IMG/VR virus record: IMGVR_UViG_3300049845_000321 | Location: 1 to 41,652 of that record | From: a virus | DNA length: 41,652 nucleotides | Direction: 5' to 3' (one strand) | Part shown: positions 2,844 to 37,698 of the stretch, piece by piece | How positions within the stretch are numbered: position 1 is the stretch's first letter | Layout of the letters: each line of letters starts with the position of its first letter | Notes under the pieces: generated by a model | The model's database searches: none | Told to the model about the DNA's origin: nothing | Seen by the model: only the letters and a program-made list of their open reading frames with translations | Made by a program: the position numbers and the translations under genes

Positions 2844-3911
2844 TTAAAGATCACAGATCTCTTTGATGATGGCTAGACGCTTTGCGCGGATAGCCTGCCC
2901 CAGCTCAGGGCCTTCCTTTGAACTGAATTCGGCGGCGCGAACCTGTCGTACCTGCTCAACGCAGCCAAGCACTCTATCGGCACGCAGCTGGGTCAGGCCT
3001 GCTGCCTCGTGAATCAAGATCACCCAGATCAGATCCTGAAAAGGGCCTGAGTGCTCTTGAAGACCACCAGCCTGCGTAATTAGGTTCAGGACGTGCTCAG
3101 AGGTGACGCCTTTCCTAAGAACCTCTGCGTACTTGGCGCAGCTCCGTACACGTTGGTTGCTGACCTTCGGTAGCGCCTTGACCAGGGAACCCAGACCGAC
3201 GCAAAAGCGCTCATTTGCTGGGATAGATGACAACGACCGAAGGAGGCGCTCGTGCCCGCGTTGCGGCAGATCTGGCAGCATCTGACTCAGCAAGGTGGAG
3301 CCATGCACGGCACCAAGCTCGTAAAGCTCGAAGATGAACCTTGTGGGGTGATCGGTGCTGAAGCCCTTTTCTAGCTCCATCCAGATCCGTTCACCCGCCA
3401 ACGTGTTCAGCTCACCAGAACTGCAGAGCTGCCGACACAGCGATCGAGTTTCAGGCGCGATCTTCCAGTTCAGGCGTGCCGCAAACCGAGCCAGCCGGAG
3501 TACTCGAAGTGGATCTTCGACGAACGCTGGAGACGTGTGCTGCAGGATCTGATTTCGCAGGTGATTCACCCCGCCAAATGGATCGATCAAAGAACCATCA
3601 GGCGCAATCGCCATGGCATTCACCGTCAGATCCCGTCGAGCCAGGTCCTGCTCAATGGTGACGTCCTCGGTGCTGACCTCAAAACCATGGTACCCAACAC
3701 CGACCTTGCGTTCCACGCGAGCGAGGGCGTACTCCTCACCAGTATTGGGGTGCAGGAAAACAGGAAAGTCGATGCCTACTTGCTGGTACCCTCGATCGAT
3801 GAGCGCCTGCACGTCTTCCGGAGTCGCACCAACGATCACCCAGTCACGGTCCTTTGGTTCGAGACCCAACTGCATGTCTCGAACAGCACCGCCAACTAGG
3901 TAGGTTTTCAT
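2844..3911 (-). CDS. cca: CCA-adding enzyme (tRNA nucleotidyltransferase)
   Basis: 355 residues, close to bacterial class II CCA enzymes. Visible are the GGAVRD signature, the catalytic DRDWV carboxylates, the ARVERKVG segment, EQDLARRDLTVNAMA, the DPFGG loop and the LRVLRLARFAARL helix. It adds or repairs the 3' CCA of tRNAs. Here it matches a phage tRNA array in which several tRNAs (for example 18658-18731 and 18741-18814) lack an encoded CCA. The start ATG overlaps the upstream stop (TGATG). Confidence 0.93.
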   Translation of the reverse strand: MKTYLVGGAVRDMQLGLEPKDRDWVIVGATPEDVQALIDRGYQQVGIDFPVFLHPNTGEEYALARVERKVGVGYHGFEVSTEDVTIEQDLARRDLTVNAMAIAPDGSLIDPFGGVNHLRNQILQHTSPAFVEDPLRVLRLARFAARLNWKIAPETRSLCRQLCSSGELNTLAGERIWMELEKGFSTDHPTRFIFELYELGAVHGSTLLSQMLPDLPQRGHERLLRSLSSIPANERFCVGLGSLVKALPKVSNQRVRSCAKYAEVLRKGVTSEHVLNLITQAGGLQEHSGPFQDLIWVILIHEAAGLTQLRADRVLGCVEQVRQVRAAEFSSKEGPELGQAIRAKRLAIIKEICDL

Positions 3912-11597: not shown

Positions 11598-12242
11598 ATG
11601 GACAGAAAAGCGGCGCAACGAACTTATCACTACCTGTATAAGATCACCCGGGACGATGGCAAGTACTACATCGGGATTCACAGTACAGACGACCTGAACG
11701 ATGGGTACTTTGGAAGCGGCAAGCGTCTTTGGAAGTCTATCAAGAGACACGGCAAGGATCGGCACAAGATGACGATTCTTGAGTTCGCGTCGGCACGAAG
11801 CGCCGTGAAAGAACTCGAGAAGGCGTTGGTGACCCATGAGATGCTGCGCGATCCGTTGTGTATGAACCTCGCGGAGGGTGGAGGTGCTGGGCCTATGCGC
11901 CACACAGAGGCCTCGCGCAAGAAAATGTCAGCGGCTCGCAAAGGTGTGCCAAAGTCCGAGGCGCACAGAAATGCGATCTCAGCGGCGCACAAGGGGAAGG
12001 TGGGGCACAAACTTTCGGATGAAGCGAGAGCCAAGGTCTCTGCTGCACTCCGCCTTCGCGTGGTCTCAGATGAAACAAAGAAGCGGATGTCAGAAACTCA
12101 GAAGGGCAGGCCAAGAACTATCTTGGCCTGCCCTCATTGCGGAAAGTCGGGTGGTAACTCCAATATGCGGAGGTACCACTTCGAGAACTGTCAGCGAGCC
12201 GACTTGCCCTCCGTGAACTTCTTCCCCACATTCGGCCAGTAG
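11598..12242 (+). CDS. GIY-YIG homing endonuclease (Seg-like)
   Basis: 214 residues. The N-terminal GIY-YIG core reads YLYKITRDDGKYYIGIHST and YFGSG. It is followed by four NUMOD3-type DNA-binding repeats (HTEASRKKMSAARKG and similar) and a C-terminal CPHCG zinc-finger-like segment. It lies opposite to its neighbours and overlaps the convergent VWA gene by 52 bases, which fits a mobile insertion. The nearest relative in the window is 26818-27495. Confidence 0.88.
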   Translation: MDRKAAQRTYHYLYKITRDDGKYYIGIHSTDDLNDGYFGSGKRLWKSIKRHGKDRHKMTILEFASARSAVKELEKALVTHEMLRDPLCMNLAEGGGAGPMRHTEASRKKMSAARKGVPKSEAHRNAISAAHKGKVGHKLSDEARAKVSAALRLRVVSDETKKRMSETQKGRPRTILACPHCGKSGGNSNMRRYHFENCQRADLPSVNFFPTFGQ

Positions 12243-16618: not shown

Positions 16619-16624
16619 CTACCA

Positions 16625-17290
16625 TCACCACAGCAGATCAAGATCGCCCTGCATAGCTCGTGCAGTGCTGATCTCTCGACCCGTCAAATGATCCTTGGTT
16701 CGATCGTCCTGGAAGCGGTACGTTCGACGTTTGTCACCGCGTTCACCAGAACCCACCTGGTTCCTCCGAAGCTCGGAACGTGATGAGCTCTGTGTCTGCA
16801 GGAGCTGCGTGTCCAGGCGGGCCAGGATCGTCGCCCTGGCCTCAGCCAGAGAATTCTCCCTGGACCGACACTGCGCCGATGCCGTGACGCCAGACGACAG
16901 GTGCACGATGCGACATGAGTTCTGGTGCTTGTTCCGGTGCTGACCTCCCGCACCGGTCCCGCTGTACCACTCGATCTTGAAATCACGATCATTGAACTGC
17001 ACTGATCGACGTTCAAGCGGGTCGAGGACCGCCACCGTGACGGTGCTTGAATGCACACGCCCTCGACGCTCAGTTGGCGGGATGCGCTGGATGCGATGGC
17101 CGCCTGCTTCGTTCTTAAGCTCCGCCAGATCGGCGCCGGCTATCTCGATTGAGATGCACTCGCCTTCCGACAGGCGGGCAGTTCAGCCGAGCTTGCCGGC
17201 AAGCTTGATGTACGCGGCGGCCAAGTCCTTTGCAAAGAGCTTGGCGTCGTCGCCGCCTTCAGCGGCGCGAATTTCGATGATGCGCTTCAT
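16625..17290 (-). CDS. RF1-type peptide chain release factor, interrupted by in-frame UGA
   Basis: ATG 17290 has GGAG upstream. The first 35 codons (MKRIIEIRAAEGGDDAKLFA) match the start of release-factor domain 2. A TGA follows at 17185-17183, and the same frame then runs 185 codons to the true end. That part has GGHRIQRIPPTERRGRVH, where PPT occupies the PxT position of RF1-type (UAA/UAG) factors. It also has GTGAGGQHRNK with the catalytic GGQ, and a normal C-terminus GERGDKRRTYRF. Domain 1 is absent, making it about 221 residues against about 360 for RF1. Frameshifting to either other frame meets a stop, so only readthrough of UGA gives a full protein. It may be recoded or broken. Confidence 0.8.
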
Positions 17291-17311
17291 GGTGATCTCC
17301 AACATGGACGT

Positions 17312-17902: not shown

Positions 17903-18035
17903 ATGACAACAAAGTATCGATGATCGATGGATAAACGGGTGCGTCTACCGATTTCGCCATAAGAGCTTTCGCCCTTAGCAGGACTCGAACCTGCGTATCC
18001 CCGTGCTTGGATAACCGTTCATCTTCGGTTGTCAT
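17903..18035 (-). other. Permuted insert flanking the permuted tRNA-Leu
   Basis: On the minus strand the order is: insert 3' half (ATGACAACCG, hairpin, GGTTATC), tRNA 3' half, GAAA, tRNA 5' half, insert 5' half (CATCG...CTTTGTTGTCAT). The outer ends pair over 8 bp (ATGACAAC with GTTGTCAT). The same insert lies in normal order inside the tRNAs at 18944 and 19958. Confidence 0.7.
17933..18009 (-). tRNA. Circularly permuted tRNA-Leu(CAA)
   Basis: The 3' half (18009-17971) comes before the 5' half (17966-17933). Acceptor strands TAAGGGC and GCTCTTA pair over 7 bp and are joined by GAAA. Anticodon stem strands CCCGT and ACGGG pair perfectly across the permutation, giving loop TTCAAGC with anticodon CAA. 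The D arm is Leu-type and the T arm is GCAGG/CCTGC. No CCA is encoded. Confidence 0.7.
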
Positions 18036-18891: not shown

Positions 18892-18943
18892 GTGACTGCG
18901 CTCCGTATTCGTTCAGTGTTCATCGAGAATCTCCGGAAAGTGG

Positions 18944-19071
18944 CGCCGATGGATGGGATTCGAACCCATCCTCCTCCCGCTTGACAGGCGATAACCATCT
19001 TGCGGACGGTCACTTGCGTGACAAAAGGTGAAGACGATGTTTTAGGCGCTCGGCCACTGAGCTACATCGGC
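18944..19071 (-). tRNA. Interrupted tRNA (Asp GUC-like), 128 bases
   Basis: Acceptor GCCGATG/CATCGGC, D arm GCTC/GAGC, T arm with six pairs, G73 and CCA all fit one tRNA. About 57 extra bases sit between the D arm and the anticodon region. The insert has a GTCAC-GCAA-GTGAC hairpin and ends GACCG-N9-TGGTTATC. The anticodon is probably GUC (CTGTCAA) but cannot be fixed without knowing the exact ends of the insert. Confidence 0.65.
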
Positions 19072-19949: not shown

Positions 19950-19957
19950 TATCTTGG

Positions 19958-20092
19958 TGGAGTCACCTAGGATTCGAACCTAGGTCAGCCGTAAGGCGCC
20001 GCCTTCACATGGATAACCATTCGCAAGCGGTTCGTCAGAACAAAGGGCGCGAACGACCTTTTTCGGTGGGTTTTCCAACTCCCTCTGACTCC
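19958..20092 (-). tRNA. Interrupted tRNA of uncertain identity, 135 bases
   Basis: Acceptor GGAGTCA/TGACTCC, D arm GGG/CCC, six-pair T stem CCTAGG, A73 and CCA belong to one tRNA, with a hairpin (GCC TTAC GGC) in the variable region. An insert between D arm and anticodon arm ends GAACCG-N8-TGGTTATC, as at 18944. A GTG in ATGTGAA is one anticodon candidate. Confidence 0.55.
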
Positions 20093-20187: not shown

Positions 20188-20565
20188 TTATGCTGCAATC
20201 TTGCGGCGCCACGATCTTGTGGAGCCTTTGTTCTTACTTCCGTAATTTTCCGTCTGCGAATGGCAGTTCGGACAAAGCAATTCTAGATTTGGCAGGACGT
20301 TATTTGTGGCAATGCCGTCCTTGTGATTCACTTGCAAAGTAAGAGGTTTCCCGTTCCACTCATTACCAACACCACATGAATTGCATTTCGATCCGAGCAA
20401 GTCTTCTATCATGGATTTAGACCACGACCTAAACTGCAGGTGCCGACCCATGTACTTGCCGTCAAGAAAATCTTGTCTGCGCTGTTCATTCTGCGCCGCT
20501 TGCTGACAAGCATTTGAGCAGAACTTTAGGTTGGTCGTTTCGACGGCACAGTACAGGCACTTCAT
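20188..20565 (-). CDS. HNH endonuclease
   Basis: 125 residues. An N-terminal zinc motif (CLYC...CSNAC), then a second pair CNSCG. The HNH core is LQVNHKDGIATNN and LELLCPNCHSQTEN. A probable homing nuclease placed between tRNA-Ala and tRNA-Leu(CAG), ending five bases before the latter. Confidence 0.85.
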   Translation of the reverse strand: MKCLYCAVETTNLKFCSNACQQAAQNEQRRQDFLDGKYMGRHLQFRSWSKSMIEDLLGSKCNSCGVGNEWNGKPLTLQVNHKDGIATNNVLPNLELLCPNCHSQTENYGSKNKGSTRSWRRKIAA

Positions 20566-21002: not shown

Positions 21003-21602
21003 TCAGGAGGACTGGGACTCAGCAAATCTTCGCACTTGAGTGTGCGAGACGTTCCACTTTTCAGAGAGCATCTTGATAGATCCGCGTTTTGGATAGCCTG
21101 ATCTATCAAGATCCTCTAATCTCTGCGCCAATGTTTTGGCATCTAGTCTAGACCCATTGTTCTGACTGATCTTCTTTCTAGATGTCTCGGTATGAGTGAA
21201 GCTTTTTCCCTTGGTGGGCGGGCTCTTCGGCCCCCAAAGACCTGCTGCCCTCTTCTTTTTCATTTCTACAGAGTGAGCTGCCTTTTTGAACTCGCTCCAT
21301 CTCAGACCGGCTCTATTGACGAAATCCCAACCACCTTCACCACCAACTTTTAGGTTGTATGTGTTTTCATCTGCAACCCATTCAGGTGTCACCAATTCCG
21401 CTTCTGCGGAGAACATTTCGTCAACTGAATTGCATTCTCGAAGCACTTTTCTCTCGAAACTGGCGGCACCGTATTTCACGAGTGCTTTCTTGAAGAGAAT
21501 TCCGCTCCCAAGATAGCAGCAGTAGTCATGCGAGCAACAGTGCGCCCCACGATACTTCTTGCCATTAACCAGATTTGTGGTTTCGTAAACTATGAACTTC
21601 AT
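21003..21602 (-). CDS. GIY-YIG homing endonuclease, divergent
   Basis: 199 residues from ATG 21602. The core reads FIVYETTNLVNGKKYRGAHC with YLGSG, so the second motif is YRG instead of YIG. A NUMOD-like KGKSFTHTETSRKKIS and a C-terminal helix-turn-helix (IKMLSEKWNVSHTQVRRFAE) follow. The ribosome site is buried in an 11-bp hairpin with a late promoter in its loop. Confidence 0.8.
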   Translation of the reverse strand: MKFIVYETTNLVNGKKYRGAHCCSHDYCCYLGSGILFKKALVKYGAASFERKVLRECNSVDEMFSAEAELVTPEWVADENTYNLKVGGEGGWDFVNRAGLRWSEFKKAAHSVEMKKKRAAGLWGPKSPPTKGKSFTHTETSRKKISQNNGSRLDAKTLAQRLEDLDRSGYPKRGSIKMLSEKWNVSHTQVRRFAESQSS

Positions 21603-21604
21603 AT

Positions 21605-21639
21605 GAACCTCCGATCTGTATTTAGCAAATCGGAGGTTC
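21605..21639 (-). promoter_or_regulatory. Ribosome-site hairpin with late promoter in the loop
   Basis: Arms gaacctccgat and atcggaggttc (11 bp) enclose GCTAAATAC. Read-through mRNA would hide GGAGG; mRNA started at the late promoter lacks the 5' arm and exposes it. Confidence 0.65.
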
Positions 21640-21645
21640 GATTGG

Positions 21646-21719
21646 TCCGGGATGCAGGCTTCGATCCTGCGGCCCCTAGTTCCCAAAACTAGTGCTCTAC
21701 CAGACTGAGCTAATCCCGG
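21646..21719 (-). tRNA. tRNA-Pro(UGG)
   Basis: C1-G72, stem CTAGT/ACTAG, loop TTTGGGA, unusual T loop ATCGAAG, CCA. Confidence 0.9.
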
Positions 21720-21803
21720 GAAGTTCACATTAGTTGACAACAAAAGGACGCGTGACCGAGTTTCGTCCAAAGATAACGATCACACAGCGGTTGTCAATTC
21801 TGG

Positions 21804-22050: not shown

Positions 22051-22132
22051 TGCGGCTGAGAGGACTCGAACCTCCACACCTTTCGGTACTACCCCCTCAA
22101 GATAGCGCGTCTACCAATTTCGCCACAGCCGC
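22051..22132 (-). tRNA. tRNA-Leu(GAG)
   Basis: Loop TTGAGGG, long variable arm, A73, CCA. Its first 36 bases overlap the end of the HNH gene. Confidence 0.92.
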
Positions 22133-22579
22133 TCTGTTCTTTCCTTTGCTGAAGGTGTGAGTTTGCGTATGGCAGTTGGGGCAAACCATGCGCAAATTTT
22201 CAAGCGAGTTATTCGTACGATCTCCATCCTTATGGTCCAGCTGAAGCACCAATCTCTTGCCGTTCCACAAGGGGCCTTGCCAGCATTCCTCGCATTCCTC
22301 TTTCTTCAGCCCCGCGGCGAGAAGCTTCTTCTTGATCGCCGCGCTGCTCATCATTTTCTCTCCAGAGAGAATCGACTCGATCGAGACTCTCCGTCGTGGA
22401 CGGGGTTTTGAAGTTCCGCGGCCACCCTGATTTGGAGAATACACCCCATGTTCTTTGCAGCGCCTAATGAAAGTGGTGTACATCAGCCCAAGCTTTTGGG
22501 AAGCCTGAACAGCCGACATTGTACTTTCAATTGCCTCGAGCAGCTGCTCTTTTGAGACCTCAATCTTTCCACGTGCCAT
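22097..22579 (-). CDS. HNH endonuclease with N-terminal helix-turn-helix
   Basis: 160 residues from ATG 22579 with GAGGAG upstream. The N-terminal helix-turn-helix is LLEAIESTMSAVQASQKLGL, the zinc pair CEECW, and the HNH core LQLDHKDGDRTNN and LRMVCPNCHTQTH. Its last 12 codons are read from the 5' part of tRNA-Leu(GAG), as if the gene had landed directly against the tRNA. Confidence 0.85.
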   Translation of the reverse strand: MARGKIEVSKEQLLEAIESTMSAVQASQKLGLMYTTFIRRCKEHGVYSPNQGGRGTSKPRPRRRVSIESILSGEKMMSSAAIKKKLLAAGLKKEECEECWQGPLWNGKRLVLQLDHKDGDRTNNSLENLRMVCPNCHTQTHTFSKGKNRAAVAKLVDALS

Positions 22580-22601
22580 TGGTAAACTCCTCAGTGTTGA
22601 G

Positions 22602-22611
22602 GTATTTACGT
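22602..22611 (-). promoter_or_regulatory. Late-promoter motif ACGTAAATAC
   Basis: Before the HNH gene. Flanking TGGTAGAC pairs with GTTTACCA around the ribosome site (one mismatch). Confidence 0.55.
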
Positions 22612-22628
22612 CTACCAAATGGTCTTGG

Positions 22629-23080: not shown

Positions 23081-23632
23081 TCAGTGCGTTTTTCTTCTAA
23101 GCTTTGCCCCATCCAAGAATGTCGGATCATAGCGCTTCAGGTACCGGACAACGCTTTGCGGTGCGATGTCTAGAGCGCGAGCAGCTTCCTCTATCCAACC
23201 ATACCTTGTTTTGTCTATCTGGGACTTTCGTAAGACTGCTACGGCAGACTCCGCTTTGGCGGCACGTTTCATCGCCTTCACCATCCTACCTTTTTCAAGG
23301 CTTTCCAACTTCACGGTTAAGACTTTGCCGCAGAACTGCCTTTTGGCTTTTATTCTTGGTGAAACGTTGTAATGCTCTTTCCATCTATCCCCGACAACTT
23401 CCGCAAAAGACTTCAGATCTTCATATTTCAAAAGACCATTGTGAGCTTTACGATGACAGTTGGGGCAGAGATAAGTCAGGTTTTCTGACGAATCTGTTCC
23501 GCCTTTAGACACGGGGATTCTATGGTGAACATCTCCTCGACATTCGTTCCAGCCACAAACAAAACACCCAAGATTCATTCGTGAGATGATCTTGGTGATG
23601 GTTCGTTTGCTACATTCAAAGATTGAATCCAT
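23081..23632 (-). CDS. HNH endonuclease with C-terminal helix-turn-helix
   Basis: 183 residues from ATG 23632. Zinc and HNH motifs are CFVCGWNECRGDVHHRIPVS and LTYLCPNCHRKAHN. The C-terminus has EEAARALDIAPQSVVRYLKR. No clear ribosome site. The start codon lies inside a small hairpin (GAATCC/GGATTC) that also holds the late octamer. It lies between tRNA-Ala and tRNA-Tyr. Confidence 0.82.
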   Translation of the reverse strand: MDSIFECSKRTITKIISRMNLGCFVCGWNECRGDVHHRIPVSKGGTDSSENLTYLCPNCHRKAHNGLLKYEDLKSFAEVVGDRWKEHYNVSPRIKAKRQFCGKVLTVKLESLEKGRMVKAMKRAAKAESAVAVLRKSQIDKTRYGWIEEAARALDIAPQSVVRYLKRYDPTFLDGAKLRRKTH

Positions 23633-23650
23633 GCCGTATTTAGCGGATTC
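23625..23650 (-). promoter_or_regulatory. Late promoter GCTAAATAC in a hairpin with the start codon
   Basis: 6-base arms around promoter and ATG of the HNH gene. Confidence 0.5.
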
Positions 23651-23661
23651 GAACACACTGG

Positions 23662-23748
23662 TGGGTGCGGTAGGAGTTGAACCTACACAGACTTATTTGT
23701 ATGCGGGAGGGTTACAGCCTCTTGAGCTCGCCAATGCTCAGCGCACCC
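23662..23748 (-). tRNA. tRNA-Tyr(GUA)
   Basis: Loop CTGTAAC, long variable region, GGGTGCG acceptor, A73, CCA. Confidence 0.88.
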
Positions 23749-23758
23749 GTAGAAATCT

Positions 23759-23890
23759 GGTCAAACAAAAACGGTGTCGGGTATTTGCTCTACCCCCGCC
23801 ACGGCTACTCTTTCGAGTTGAGCGTGCCCGAATCGAACGGGCCAGGTTTCATTATGGCAGAAAGATAACCAACAATCCAACGGTTCAACC
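23759..23890 (-). other. Second candidate permuted tRNA-like element
   Basis: On the minus strand: GGTTGAACCG, hairpin, TTGGTTATC, then a tRNA 3' half with T arm GCCCG/CGGGC, ACTC-GAAA-GAGT closing the acceptor, a possible 5' half, and TTTTTGTTTGACC. GGTTGAA and TTTGACC pair over 7 bp, as the outer stem does at 17903. The 5' half lacks a clean D arm, so identity is open. Confidence 0.45.
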
Positions 23891-31959: not shown

Positions 31960-31975
31960 CACAACTCCAAAGTGG

Positions 31976-32048
31976 TGGCCAAGACGGGGATCGAACCCGT
32001 GACCGTGGGATTTAGAGTCCCGGCTCTAACCAACTGAGCTACTTGGCC
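31976..32048 (-). tRNA. tRNA-Arg(UCU)
   Basis: Standard cloverleaf, loop CTCTAAA, A73, CCA. It lies apart from the array, downstream of tmRNA. Confidence 0.93.
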
Positions 32049-32112: not shown

Positions 32113-32490
32113 CGGACCGTTCTTTGATACGGTGGTTCTACCGCACCGGGAGCCGTTTCTTAGGCGGCTACGCGGAAGTTGTCATCGTTTGCAGATGATT
32201 GATTTGCTTCATCGTGAGGAGGTCCTCACCGGCGATCGCCTGCCGAGTCGCGTATCATCGTCTCCGTAACCCTGTCGAAACCTTGGCCGGCCCATGACAA
32301 AGAACACTGAGGGCATAGGAAGAACCAACTTCCCAATGTGTCTCCCACCTGGATACAGCCGAAGCCATACTGGTTCCCAGGTAAATCTCTAGTGCTCTTT
32401 GTGGTGGACCGGGCGGGAGTCGAACCCGCGTCCAGAATCCTTCAAGTCAGTCCGAATTACGACCATCACCGCTTGCGCGGTAGCTCTATT
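32113..32490 (-). ncRNA. ssrA: tmRNA, circularly permuted (two-piece)
   Basis: The acceptor piece comes first (about 32490-32402). It ends TCTGGACGCGGG, TTCGACT, CCCGC, CCGGTCC, A73, CCA. The coding piece starts at 32293 with GGGCCGG, which pairs with CCGGTCC and has the G3-U70 alanine signal. GGTTTCGACAGGG follows, as in tmRNA 5' ends. The tag reads GCA to TAA at 32192-32160 and encodes ANDDNFRVAA, close to ANDENYALAA. The spacer between pieces folds on itself (ACAAAGAGCACT with AGTGTTCTTTGT). It would free stalled ribosomes and tag the peptide for ClpXP. Confidence 0.88.
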
Positions 32491-36501: not shown

Positions 36502-37698
36502 TCATACTACCCAATTCACATTACTCGCCGTTGGTCCCAAAGACACTGCGAGTATTTTCAGGTTCAGTTCTTGCTCGATCAGACCGGGCAGGTCTGACGG
36601 GTCGATTTGCTCGGTCAGCTTCATCGCCCCGGCGCCGTGCGTCACGACTTTGACCTGTCCATGGATCTGATCAAGACATGTCAAGGCGATGACCGGCGGA
36701 TTGATGGTGACGCCCGTGACCTGCGACAGCACGCGCGCTCGATCTCGATCAGCGTTGATGAAGTACCGCATCATTGGCAGGTTCAGAGGTGCGTACCGCA
36801 GCGAGCCCTGCCACGCGTTCGGTTGATTCGTTGGGTCCAGTGGGTTTGGACCATCATGGAACGGGATGTGCTCGCAGGGCAGCTCACCAGCACCGTGTCT
36901 CGTCAGATACGCGCGGGTGACGTACACCGGCGTCAGGCTCTTGATGCCGACCTCGTGTGCGTGCATGATCGCATATGGCAGCCCGGTCATGGAACGGGTC
37001 ACATGTGGGAACTTGCCCATGAATTCATCGAGCGCGAGACCTTGAGCGCCTTCGTATACGACCTCGTCATCATCGAGTCTCGACGAGAAGTTGAAGCACT
37101 TGTCGAGAACCTCGTAGATGTCGTTTGCATGCTCCTGGATGGAGACCTCCATCATCGGCTTGAACAGCTCGTGCCCCAGGTACTGCTCAAGCTCACGTGC
37201 TCGAACCTGCTCCTGAAACCAATCGAAGGCCTTGGTGACGTCTTTGGCAATCGAGAGCCGGCTCATCGCGGTGCTGATAGGCACCACCTTGTGTCGATTC
37301 ACGGTCTCGTTGATGCCCACGCCACATGACCCGTGTCGTTGGCTGCCGCGCGCCATCTCGGTCATGGCGTTCAGCATCATCTCGAAGATCGTGCTGACAC
37401 GCGCTCTGGCGTCAATGAAGATCGGACCAGCCGATGCGCCCAGAACCTTGAGCTCCTTTCGCAGGAGCAGTGGGTTCACGATGAACTGCGAGGTCAGAAG
37501 GGTGCGAGCACCGGCGAAAGCACCCGCACCGACATGGCCAAAGACGTGGCGGCGCGGTCCGTCGACAACGGTGTGCCCGGCTTGAGCACCACCGTTGAAG
37601 CGCGCCACGTACGGCGCACCAGTACGTCGGACCAGGGCATCGGTGATGAGCCCCTTGCCCTCATCGCCGAAGTTCGCGCCAATCACCACGAAGGCCAT
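36502..37698 (-). CDS. purA: Adenylosuccinate synthetase-like protein
   Basis: 398 residues. GANFGDEGKGLITDAL (GTP loop with the catalytic Asp), NGGAQAGHTV, SQRHGSCGVGINETVNRH, EGAQGLALDEFMGKFPHVT and a late ALTCLDQIHG follow PurA order. It would join IMP and aspartate. PurZ, the 2-aminoadenine version in some phages, usually lacks the Asp of GDEGKG; it is present here, so AMP synthesis is favoured. The ribosome site is AAGGAGC. Confidence 0.85.
   Translation of the reverse strand: MAFVVIGANFGDEGKGLITDALVRRTGAPYVARFNGGAQAGHTVVDGPRRHVFGHVGAGAFAGARTLLTSQFIVNPLLLRKELKVLGASAGPIFIDARARVSTIFEMMLNAMTEMARGSQRHGSCGVGINETVNRHKVVPISTAMSRLSIAKDVTKAFDWFQEQVRARELEQYLGHELFKPMMEVSIQEHANDIYEVLDKCFNFSSRLDDDEVVYEGAQGLALDEFMGKFPHVTRSMTGLPYAIMHAHEVGIKSLTPVYVTRAYLTRHGAGELPCEHIPFHDGPNPLDPTNQPNAWQGSLRYAPLNLPMMRYFINADRDRARVLSQVTGVTINPPVIALTCLDQIHGQVKVVTHGAGAMKLTEQIDPSDLPGLIEQELNLKILAVSLGPTASNVNWVV

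Follow-up and report, generated by a model that had tools for sequence, protein, structure and literature searches.

An insert belonging to a conserved RNA element of approximately 50 to 60 nt was confirmed inside a tRNA gene (site B) of IMGVR_UViG_3300049845_000321, an uncultivated-virus record of 41.7 kb that was analysed over its full length of 41,652 nucleotides (referred to as the window). Sequence comparison across viral contigs suggests that this insert is an excised tRNA intron of an undescribed class, which occurs in both linear and permuted forms, and we assign this reading a probability of approximately 0.8. The same comparison defines the element as a structured RNA family of its own, whose place is the 5′ side of tRNA anticodon arms. 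It matches none of the known intron classes and would point to an undescribed route by which large uncultivated phages cut and rejoin RNA.

Site B lies in a long tRNA array on the minus strand of the window. The preliminary description had located a feature at 19958–20092, which is indeed present, although the tRNA gene runs from 19955 to 20092 and the insert itself from 20013 to 20063 (51 nt; both on the minus strand). The gene has a Tyr-like body with an intact acceptor stem (GGAGTCA/TGACTCC); D, variable and T arms are present as well, the variable arm being long, and CCA is encoded. The 51 extra nucleotides separate the D arm from the anticodon. On the minus strand, the signatures quoted in the preliminary description, 5′ GGTCGTTCGCGCCCTTTGTTC and 3′ GAACCGCTTGCGAATGGTTATC, fall within the tRNA gene, and the intron follows the layout AAAAAGGUCG-P3-CCUUUG-P4-CCG-P3′-AUGGUUAU. 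As encoded, site B yielded no tRNA call by ARAGORN. Joining the exons at the junction that an ARAGORN junction grid located at 29^30 of the tRNA gave a tRNA score of 107.9, and the joined exons aligned through the junction, ungapped, with a phage tRNA that has no intron (81.6% over 38 nt). Because the joined sequence presents an AUGUGAA loop on a perfect CCGCC/GGCGG stem, the anticodon is GUG. The joined tRNA thus carries a GUG (His) anticodon on a Tyr-like body (long variable arm, A73), while its relatives read GUA (Tyr). A second Tyr-like tRNA, with a GTA anticodon, was overlooked by ARAGORN at 23659–23748 of the window. The heptamer GGTTATC is by itself unremarkable (5 occurrences in the window versus 2.27 expected), and the composite motif GAACCG-N6..10-GGTTATC occurs twice in the 41.7 kb and not at all in the reversed control.

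The preliminary description had grouped three sites with shared ends. All three are present, and sites A and B are indeed tRNAs with an insert, but the stretch at 17903–18035 (site C) turned out to be a circularly permuted tRNA gene, flanked on either side by one part of the element, and the window holds two further sites at 23760–23889 and 21735–21796. Site A is a tRNA-Asp(GUC) gene with a linear intron of 54 nt (gene 18941–19071, intron 18991–19044, both on the minus strand; junction 28^29 of the tRNA). Its joined exons score 115.4 and align through the junction, ungapped, with an intron-less tRNA in L012 (82.5% over 40 nt). Site C (17904–18034, minus strand) is a circularly permuted tRNA-Leu(CAA) that was not called by ARAGORN as encoded and reads as a tRNA only after rotation (score 115.9). 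Rotation and sequence place its 3′ half at 17971–18009 and its 5′ half at 17934–17966, with a GAAA loop at 17967–17970 joining the acceptor 3′ strand TAAGGGC to the 5′ strand GCTCTTA. Upstream of the 3′ half lies the 3′ part of the intron (18010–18034; P4 strand UGACAA, CCG, a P3 strand and CGGUUAUC), and downstream of the 5′ half lies its 5′ part (17904–17933; UAUCC...AUCGAUACUUUG and P4 strand UUGUCA), both following the same core pattern; the former also gave a weak match to model R2 (E 0.057). Since the hairpin that closes the element within A and B is built from the two outer ends in site C, site C is a circular permutation of the A/B arrangement. Site D (23760–23889, minus strand; R2 78.1 bits, E 7.8e-16) is an RNA of a class referred to as class F, in a permuted shell, and site E (21735–21796, minus strand; R2 21.5 bits, E 0.0075) is a short permuted shell without a tRNA, located between tRNA-Ser and tRNA-Pro.

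Elsewhere in the window, we noted a release-factor-like ORF (16622–17299; RF-1 domain, GGQ) with an in-frame TGA near its start, a permuted tmRNA (32160–32464) adjoining a tRNA with a CUA anticodon (31973–32048), which ARAGORN assigns to Pyl and which might be an amber suppressor, and a 2-aminoadenylosuccinate synthetase-like gene (PurZ family; 36502–37698) that could mean a modified-base genome.

A search pattern based on the three window sites plus the T-arm retrieved 65 loci from viral contigs, and a seed alignment of 32 distinct linear copies led to the covariance model R1. Sites A and B were part of this seed, so their 64.0 and 56.5 bits are training-set scores; copies outside the seed were recovered with E values of 1e-13 to 1e-8. 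The consensus of the 32 copies reads AAAACAUCG, a P3 strand, NN-C-UUUUG, the P4 hairpin, CCG-NNN, the other P3 strand and YGGUUAUC. P3 comprises 8 bp and P4 at least 4 bp, and two internal loops are conserved, namely 5′ AAA(A)NNNCG... with NNCUUUUG, and 3′ CCGNNN with YGGUUAUC. Fifteen columns of this RNA of approximately 55 nt are invariant, several of them unpaired. In the 32 seed introns, 96.9% of the P3/P4 cells are paired and 53 double changes were counted versus 13.4 in shuffles, while sliding the alignment as a control brought pairing down to 16–56%. Extending the count to 50 distinct introns left pairing at 97.0% and raised the double changes to 97 versus 24.2 in shuffles, a value that none of 500 shuffles matched. 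The existence of one insert family with shared signatures in independent tRNAs, as put forward in the preliminary description, is therefore borne out by its wide occurrence in viral contigs and its strong covariation, and the model search that had been proposed there returned both further copies and compensatory changes. P3 and P4 are absent from the minimum-energy fold of single whole pre-tRNAs, which counts against our preferred reading; covariation was preferred over such single-sequence folding.

Scans of viral contigs brought the number of distinct linear copies to 50, spread over dozens of contigs. When whole records were searched, between one and four copies turned up in 13 of the 15 large ones, which measure 164 to 368 kb, and copies were also present in 14 of 25 other records. 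Among 22 whole genomes of cultured phages, picked for their tRNA clusters, KptA or related proteins, R1 found none, while the positive control G016 was detected; likewise, blastn of one intron against 50,697 phage records gave no match. A pattern scan of bacterial and archaeal genomes yielded 32 matches, which is near the estimated chance level, and none of these was convincing by R1 (best E 0.08). An extra pattern (AAACGTCG...) was found in 0 viral contigs.

Excision was examined by joining the flanks of the element at all 16 x 17 offset combinations and scoring the products by tRNA quality alone. The best 3′ junction fell at UUA^, UUAU^ or UUAUC^ in 26.4 of the 32 copies (ties being shared and 17 offsets tested), and the best 5′ junction mostly directly before the A-run. 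Exact removal of the intron restored a tRNA cloverleaf in 50 of 52 linear copies, covering most amino-acid types, and one of the two exceptions (L154 20–74) is truncated by the contig end. The element was found in many different tRNAs, on the 5′ side of the anticodon arm at about position 27 to 34. Relative to the core, the 3′ junction shifts by up to two nucleotides, and we take this variation to be real because the anticodon stem forces the choice in several copies: L018 and L042 need UUA^UC, while L025 and L034 need UUAUC^. The Rfam tRNA model spans some of the interrupted genes, such as that at L006 5816–5944 (50.9 bits). A further stretch of L006, at 11801–12142, is a candidate for a bacterial class A RNase P RNA encoded by a phage, with a score under the gathering threshold (48.6 bits, E 2.4e-12).

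A custom search revealed about 40 elements in the permuted order, so that the same core is kept in a linear and a permuted topology. Besides site C, true permuted tRNAs were obtained after rotation at L063 (Gly; 113.9), L059 (111.4), L062 (109.5) and L045 (108.7), the latter three being Leu-like, and none of these five was read as a tRNA by ARAGORN as encoded. L025 7953 looks by eye like a permuted Gly tRNA, unconfirmed by ARAGORN. The acceptor strands of the permuted tRNAs are linked by GAAA, GTAA, AAT or a longer loop, and no CCA is encoded. At L009 4035 and L040 5843, an apparently complete tRNA in normal order lies inside a permuted shell.

Cargos other than decoding tRNAs comprise class F, a class G, and short shells. 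The conserved class F RNAs combine a T-arm (GUUCGAUUC) with a D-loop-like stem-loop carrying UGG...GG, lack both an acceptor stem and CCA, and show covariation in their outer helix, P3 and T-stem. At E < 1e-12, class F was present in 20 of 34 records, nearly always as a single copy; most of the intron-bearing records have one such strong copy, and G004 and G006 (two large intron-less records) gave no strong matches; further examples lie at L016 4450, L023 2389 and L053 917. Among cultured phages, Myxococcus phage Mx1 (OR576727.2) shows a weak class F-like match in its tRNA cluster at 45522–45623 (L169/L170; 24.7 bits, E 0.006), with GUCUUC/GAAGAC and UUUUGUCAC present and the UUAUC motif changed, which might offer a cultured model. 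Class G (L014 1423, L015 442, L016 1772, L021 1798, L043 8220, L060 1056 and L115 143) is a conserved RNA in a permuted shell with a T-loop-like hairpin and, in place of the acceptor, a GNRA-closed hairpin. The short shells (site E; L008 9464, L023 3991, L046 1386 and L049 8491) retain both conserved internal loops around a short cargo, often with TTGACAA/TTGTCA as outer stem, and cannot yield a tRNA. Such short shells without a tRNA fall outside the intron explanation and count against it.

If the element is indeed an intron, the anticodon hairpin could form within the 3′ exon of the folded pre-tRNA, from which the intron hairpin would project as a side arm. Two cuts would be made at the base of this arm, one directly before the A-run and one within UUA^U^C^. 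The anticodon stem and the tRNA fold would keep the two exon ends next to each other for joining, probably by a phage RNA ligase. In permuted genes, the core would form between the two ends of the transcript, and joining would produce a circular pre-tRNA that may be opened at the GAAA acceptor loop by RNase P and 3′ processing. CCA would subsequently be added by an enzyme such as the CCA-adding enzyme (tRNA nucleotidyltransferase) of the window (2844–3911, minus strand; phrog_2244, E 3.8e-93), which would suit the permuted tRNAs since these encode no CCA.

With regard to the cutting itself, the invariant unpaired bases speak for a ribozyme-like core, as does its persistence in linear and permuted genes alike, and the conserved RNA may be a small ribozyme that makes the cuts, a proposition that we rate just short of even odds. 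The 3′ junction variation of up to two nucleotides would be unusual for a ribozyme and argues against this part. The flexible junction, together with the ligases and KptA, favours a protein or mixed route, and we therefore lean only slightly towards the RNA core, with a protein nuclease being almost as likely.

In the protein-catalysed alternative, which is a serious contender while falling short of probable, the core would be the recognition site of a phage or host endonuclease that reads the tRNA elbow, after which Rnl1 or Rnl2 and, where present, KptA would heal and seal the exons. A measuring enzyme would suit the variable 3′ junction, and most of the larger permuted cargos keep a T-arm, to which class F adds its D-loop-like element. 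Moreover, members of RNA ligase families were found in all but one of the 13 large records that bear introns. However, Rnl1-type (T4) and Rnl2-type ligases were each present in 13 of 16 records, intron-less jumbo records included, and neither type was found in G014 (175 kb, perhaps incomplete), which carries four introns, so that no protein partner could be pinned down. RtcB was absent from 15 records, as was an archaeal EndA-type endonuclease (PF01974), which was detected in four archaeal controls; both absences weigh against this alternative.

KptA was present in 7 of the 13 large intron-bearing records (G001, G002, G005, G007, G008, G011 and G012) and in neither of two intron-less ones, and occurs in 94 of 50,697 records of deposited phages. 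After tRNA splicing in yeast and plants, KptA/Tpt1 removes the 2′-phosphate that remains at the junction, which finishes the process in yeast. KptA might be a splicing enzyme of intron-bearing jumbo phages, which, given the small numbers and the relatedness of these phages, we regard as a lead. In a review, phage KptA was attributed to the repair of tRNAs cut by host nucleases, with introns unmentioned (PMC9503650).

Fully autonomous self-splicing, in which the core of 51–60 nt would both cut and join the exons without any protein, appears unlikely. It would accommodate the 15 invariant columns in a 55-nt RNA, the identical core of the linear and permuted forms, and the failure to find a universal protein partner. 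The flexible junction and the retention of several RNA ligases by some phages speak against it, as does the size of the core, since we know of no self-splicing intron anywhere near as small. Equally doubtful is the wider proposition that the core could be by far the smallest self-splicing ribozyme known, a class apart from groups I and II, which would occur naturally both in linear form and as permuted intron–exon genes that yield circular pre-tRNAs in phages, and whose shell would also yield conserved circular non-coding RNAs (classes F and G).

The element might also stay in, as an extra arm of non-decoding tRNA-like RNAs (such as decoys for host anticodon nucleases) or of decayed tRNAs. Excision is indeed inferred from comparing sequences, and class F and the short shells are clearly non-decoding. 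Nevertheless, full anticodon stems are regained when the exons are joined, with hardly any shift of the junction across tRNAs of most amino-acid types, and decay would not preserve the P3/P4 covariation, which makes this alternative quite improbable.

Recent spread of a mobile DNA or RNA element, for which several sites per genome in different tRNAs and the HNH endonuclease genes between the tRNAs might be cited, is the least credible explanation, as the insert contains no gene, 50 of 52 linear copies sit in tRNAs, and intron identity within genomes equals that between genomes (0.62 versus 0.61; permutation p 0.27). The suggestion in the preliminary description that the element is mobile or spreading is thus not supported in any recent sense. 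No near-identical recent copies were found within a genome, and several of the closest intron pairs come from one and the same tRNA in different phages, which together with the equal identities points to old residence in tRNA genes. Nearly every linear copy was located in the anticodon arm of a tRNA, which agrees better with an ancient class of tRNA-bound introns than with a promiscuous element. The HNH endonuclease ORFs of the window are located at 20188–20565 (weak), 21003–21770, 22097–22618 and 23081–23656; by eye, the ORF at 21003–21770 appears GIY-YIG-like, yet it has no Pfam match.

If our preferred reading of an excised tRNA intron is true, the family would constitute a further intron class beside group I, group II, spliceosomal and BHB/EndA introns, and its permuted members would be, as far as the literature found shows, the first such tRNA genes from beyond the algae and archaea. 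The role of the RNA ligases and KptA of large phages is usually ascribed to tRNA repair, and the element would be a candidate substrate for these enzymes. An RNA of approximately 55 nt within a 130-nt pre-tRNA makes for a simple in vitro system, and should the core prove catalytic, it could provide a very small tool for splicing or the production of circular RNA.

With both gathering and relaxed thresholds, Rfam returned only tRNA, tmRNA and chance matches at the sites examined. Group I introns also interrupt bacterial tRNA genes, and occur in phages as well, but they are about 200 nt or more in length with a known core. The phage element, at only 51–60 nt, is far shorter and lacks the Rfam core, and a group I intron was rejected since no Rfam group I match appeared at any threshold used. 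Archaeal and eukaryotic tRNA introns are likewise short and located in the anticodon arm of many tRNAs; they are found at 37/38, whereas the phage introns sit at about 27–34, upstream of the anticodon or where it starts, with strong sequence conservation and a different structure. A bulge-helix-bulge (BHB) intron, with a 4-bp helix between two 3-nt bulges around the splice sites, was rejected as well, since none of 22 introns with junctions had 4 of 4 central pairs (best 2 canonical, or 3 in a relaxed register) and no EndA was found in the 15 records searched.

Neither permuted tRNA genes nor introns of this kind were found described for phages or bacteria, in a literature search that covered subscription journals and preprints thinly, and a 2014 review lists permuted tRNA genes in six algae and one archaeon only (PMC3978253). 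In Cyanidioschyzon merolae, other algae and one archaeon, permuted tRNA genes share with those of the phages the leading 3′ half, the short acceptor spacer, the inferred circular intermediate and the non-encoded CCA (PMC3978253, PMC3218864). The algal and archaeal genes rely on a bulge-helix-bulge motif and EndA, whereas the phage genes have a conserved sequence core and neither of the two was found in the copies and records tested. A known small ribozyme was rejected, as there was no Rfam match to any such family. Hammerhead, twister and hairpin ribozymes are nevertheless similar in their size of about 50–60 nt, in their conserved unpaired loop bases and in a core that occurs in circular permutations, but the phage element would differ from these small self-cleaving ribozymes in needing two cuts and a ligation.
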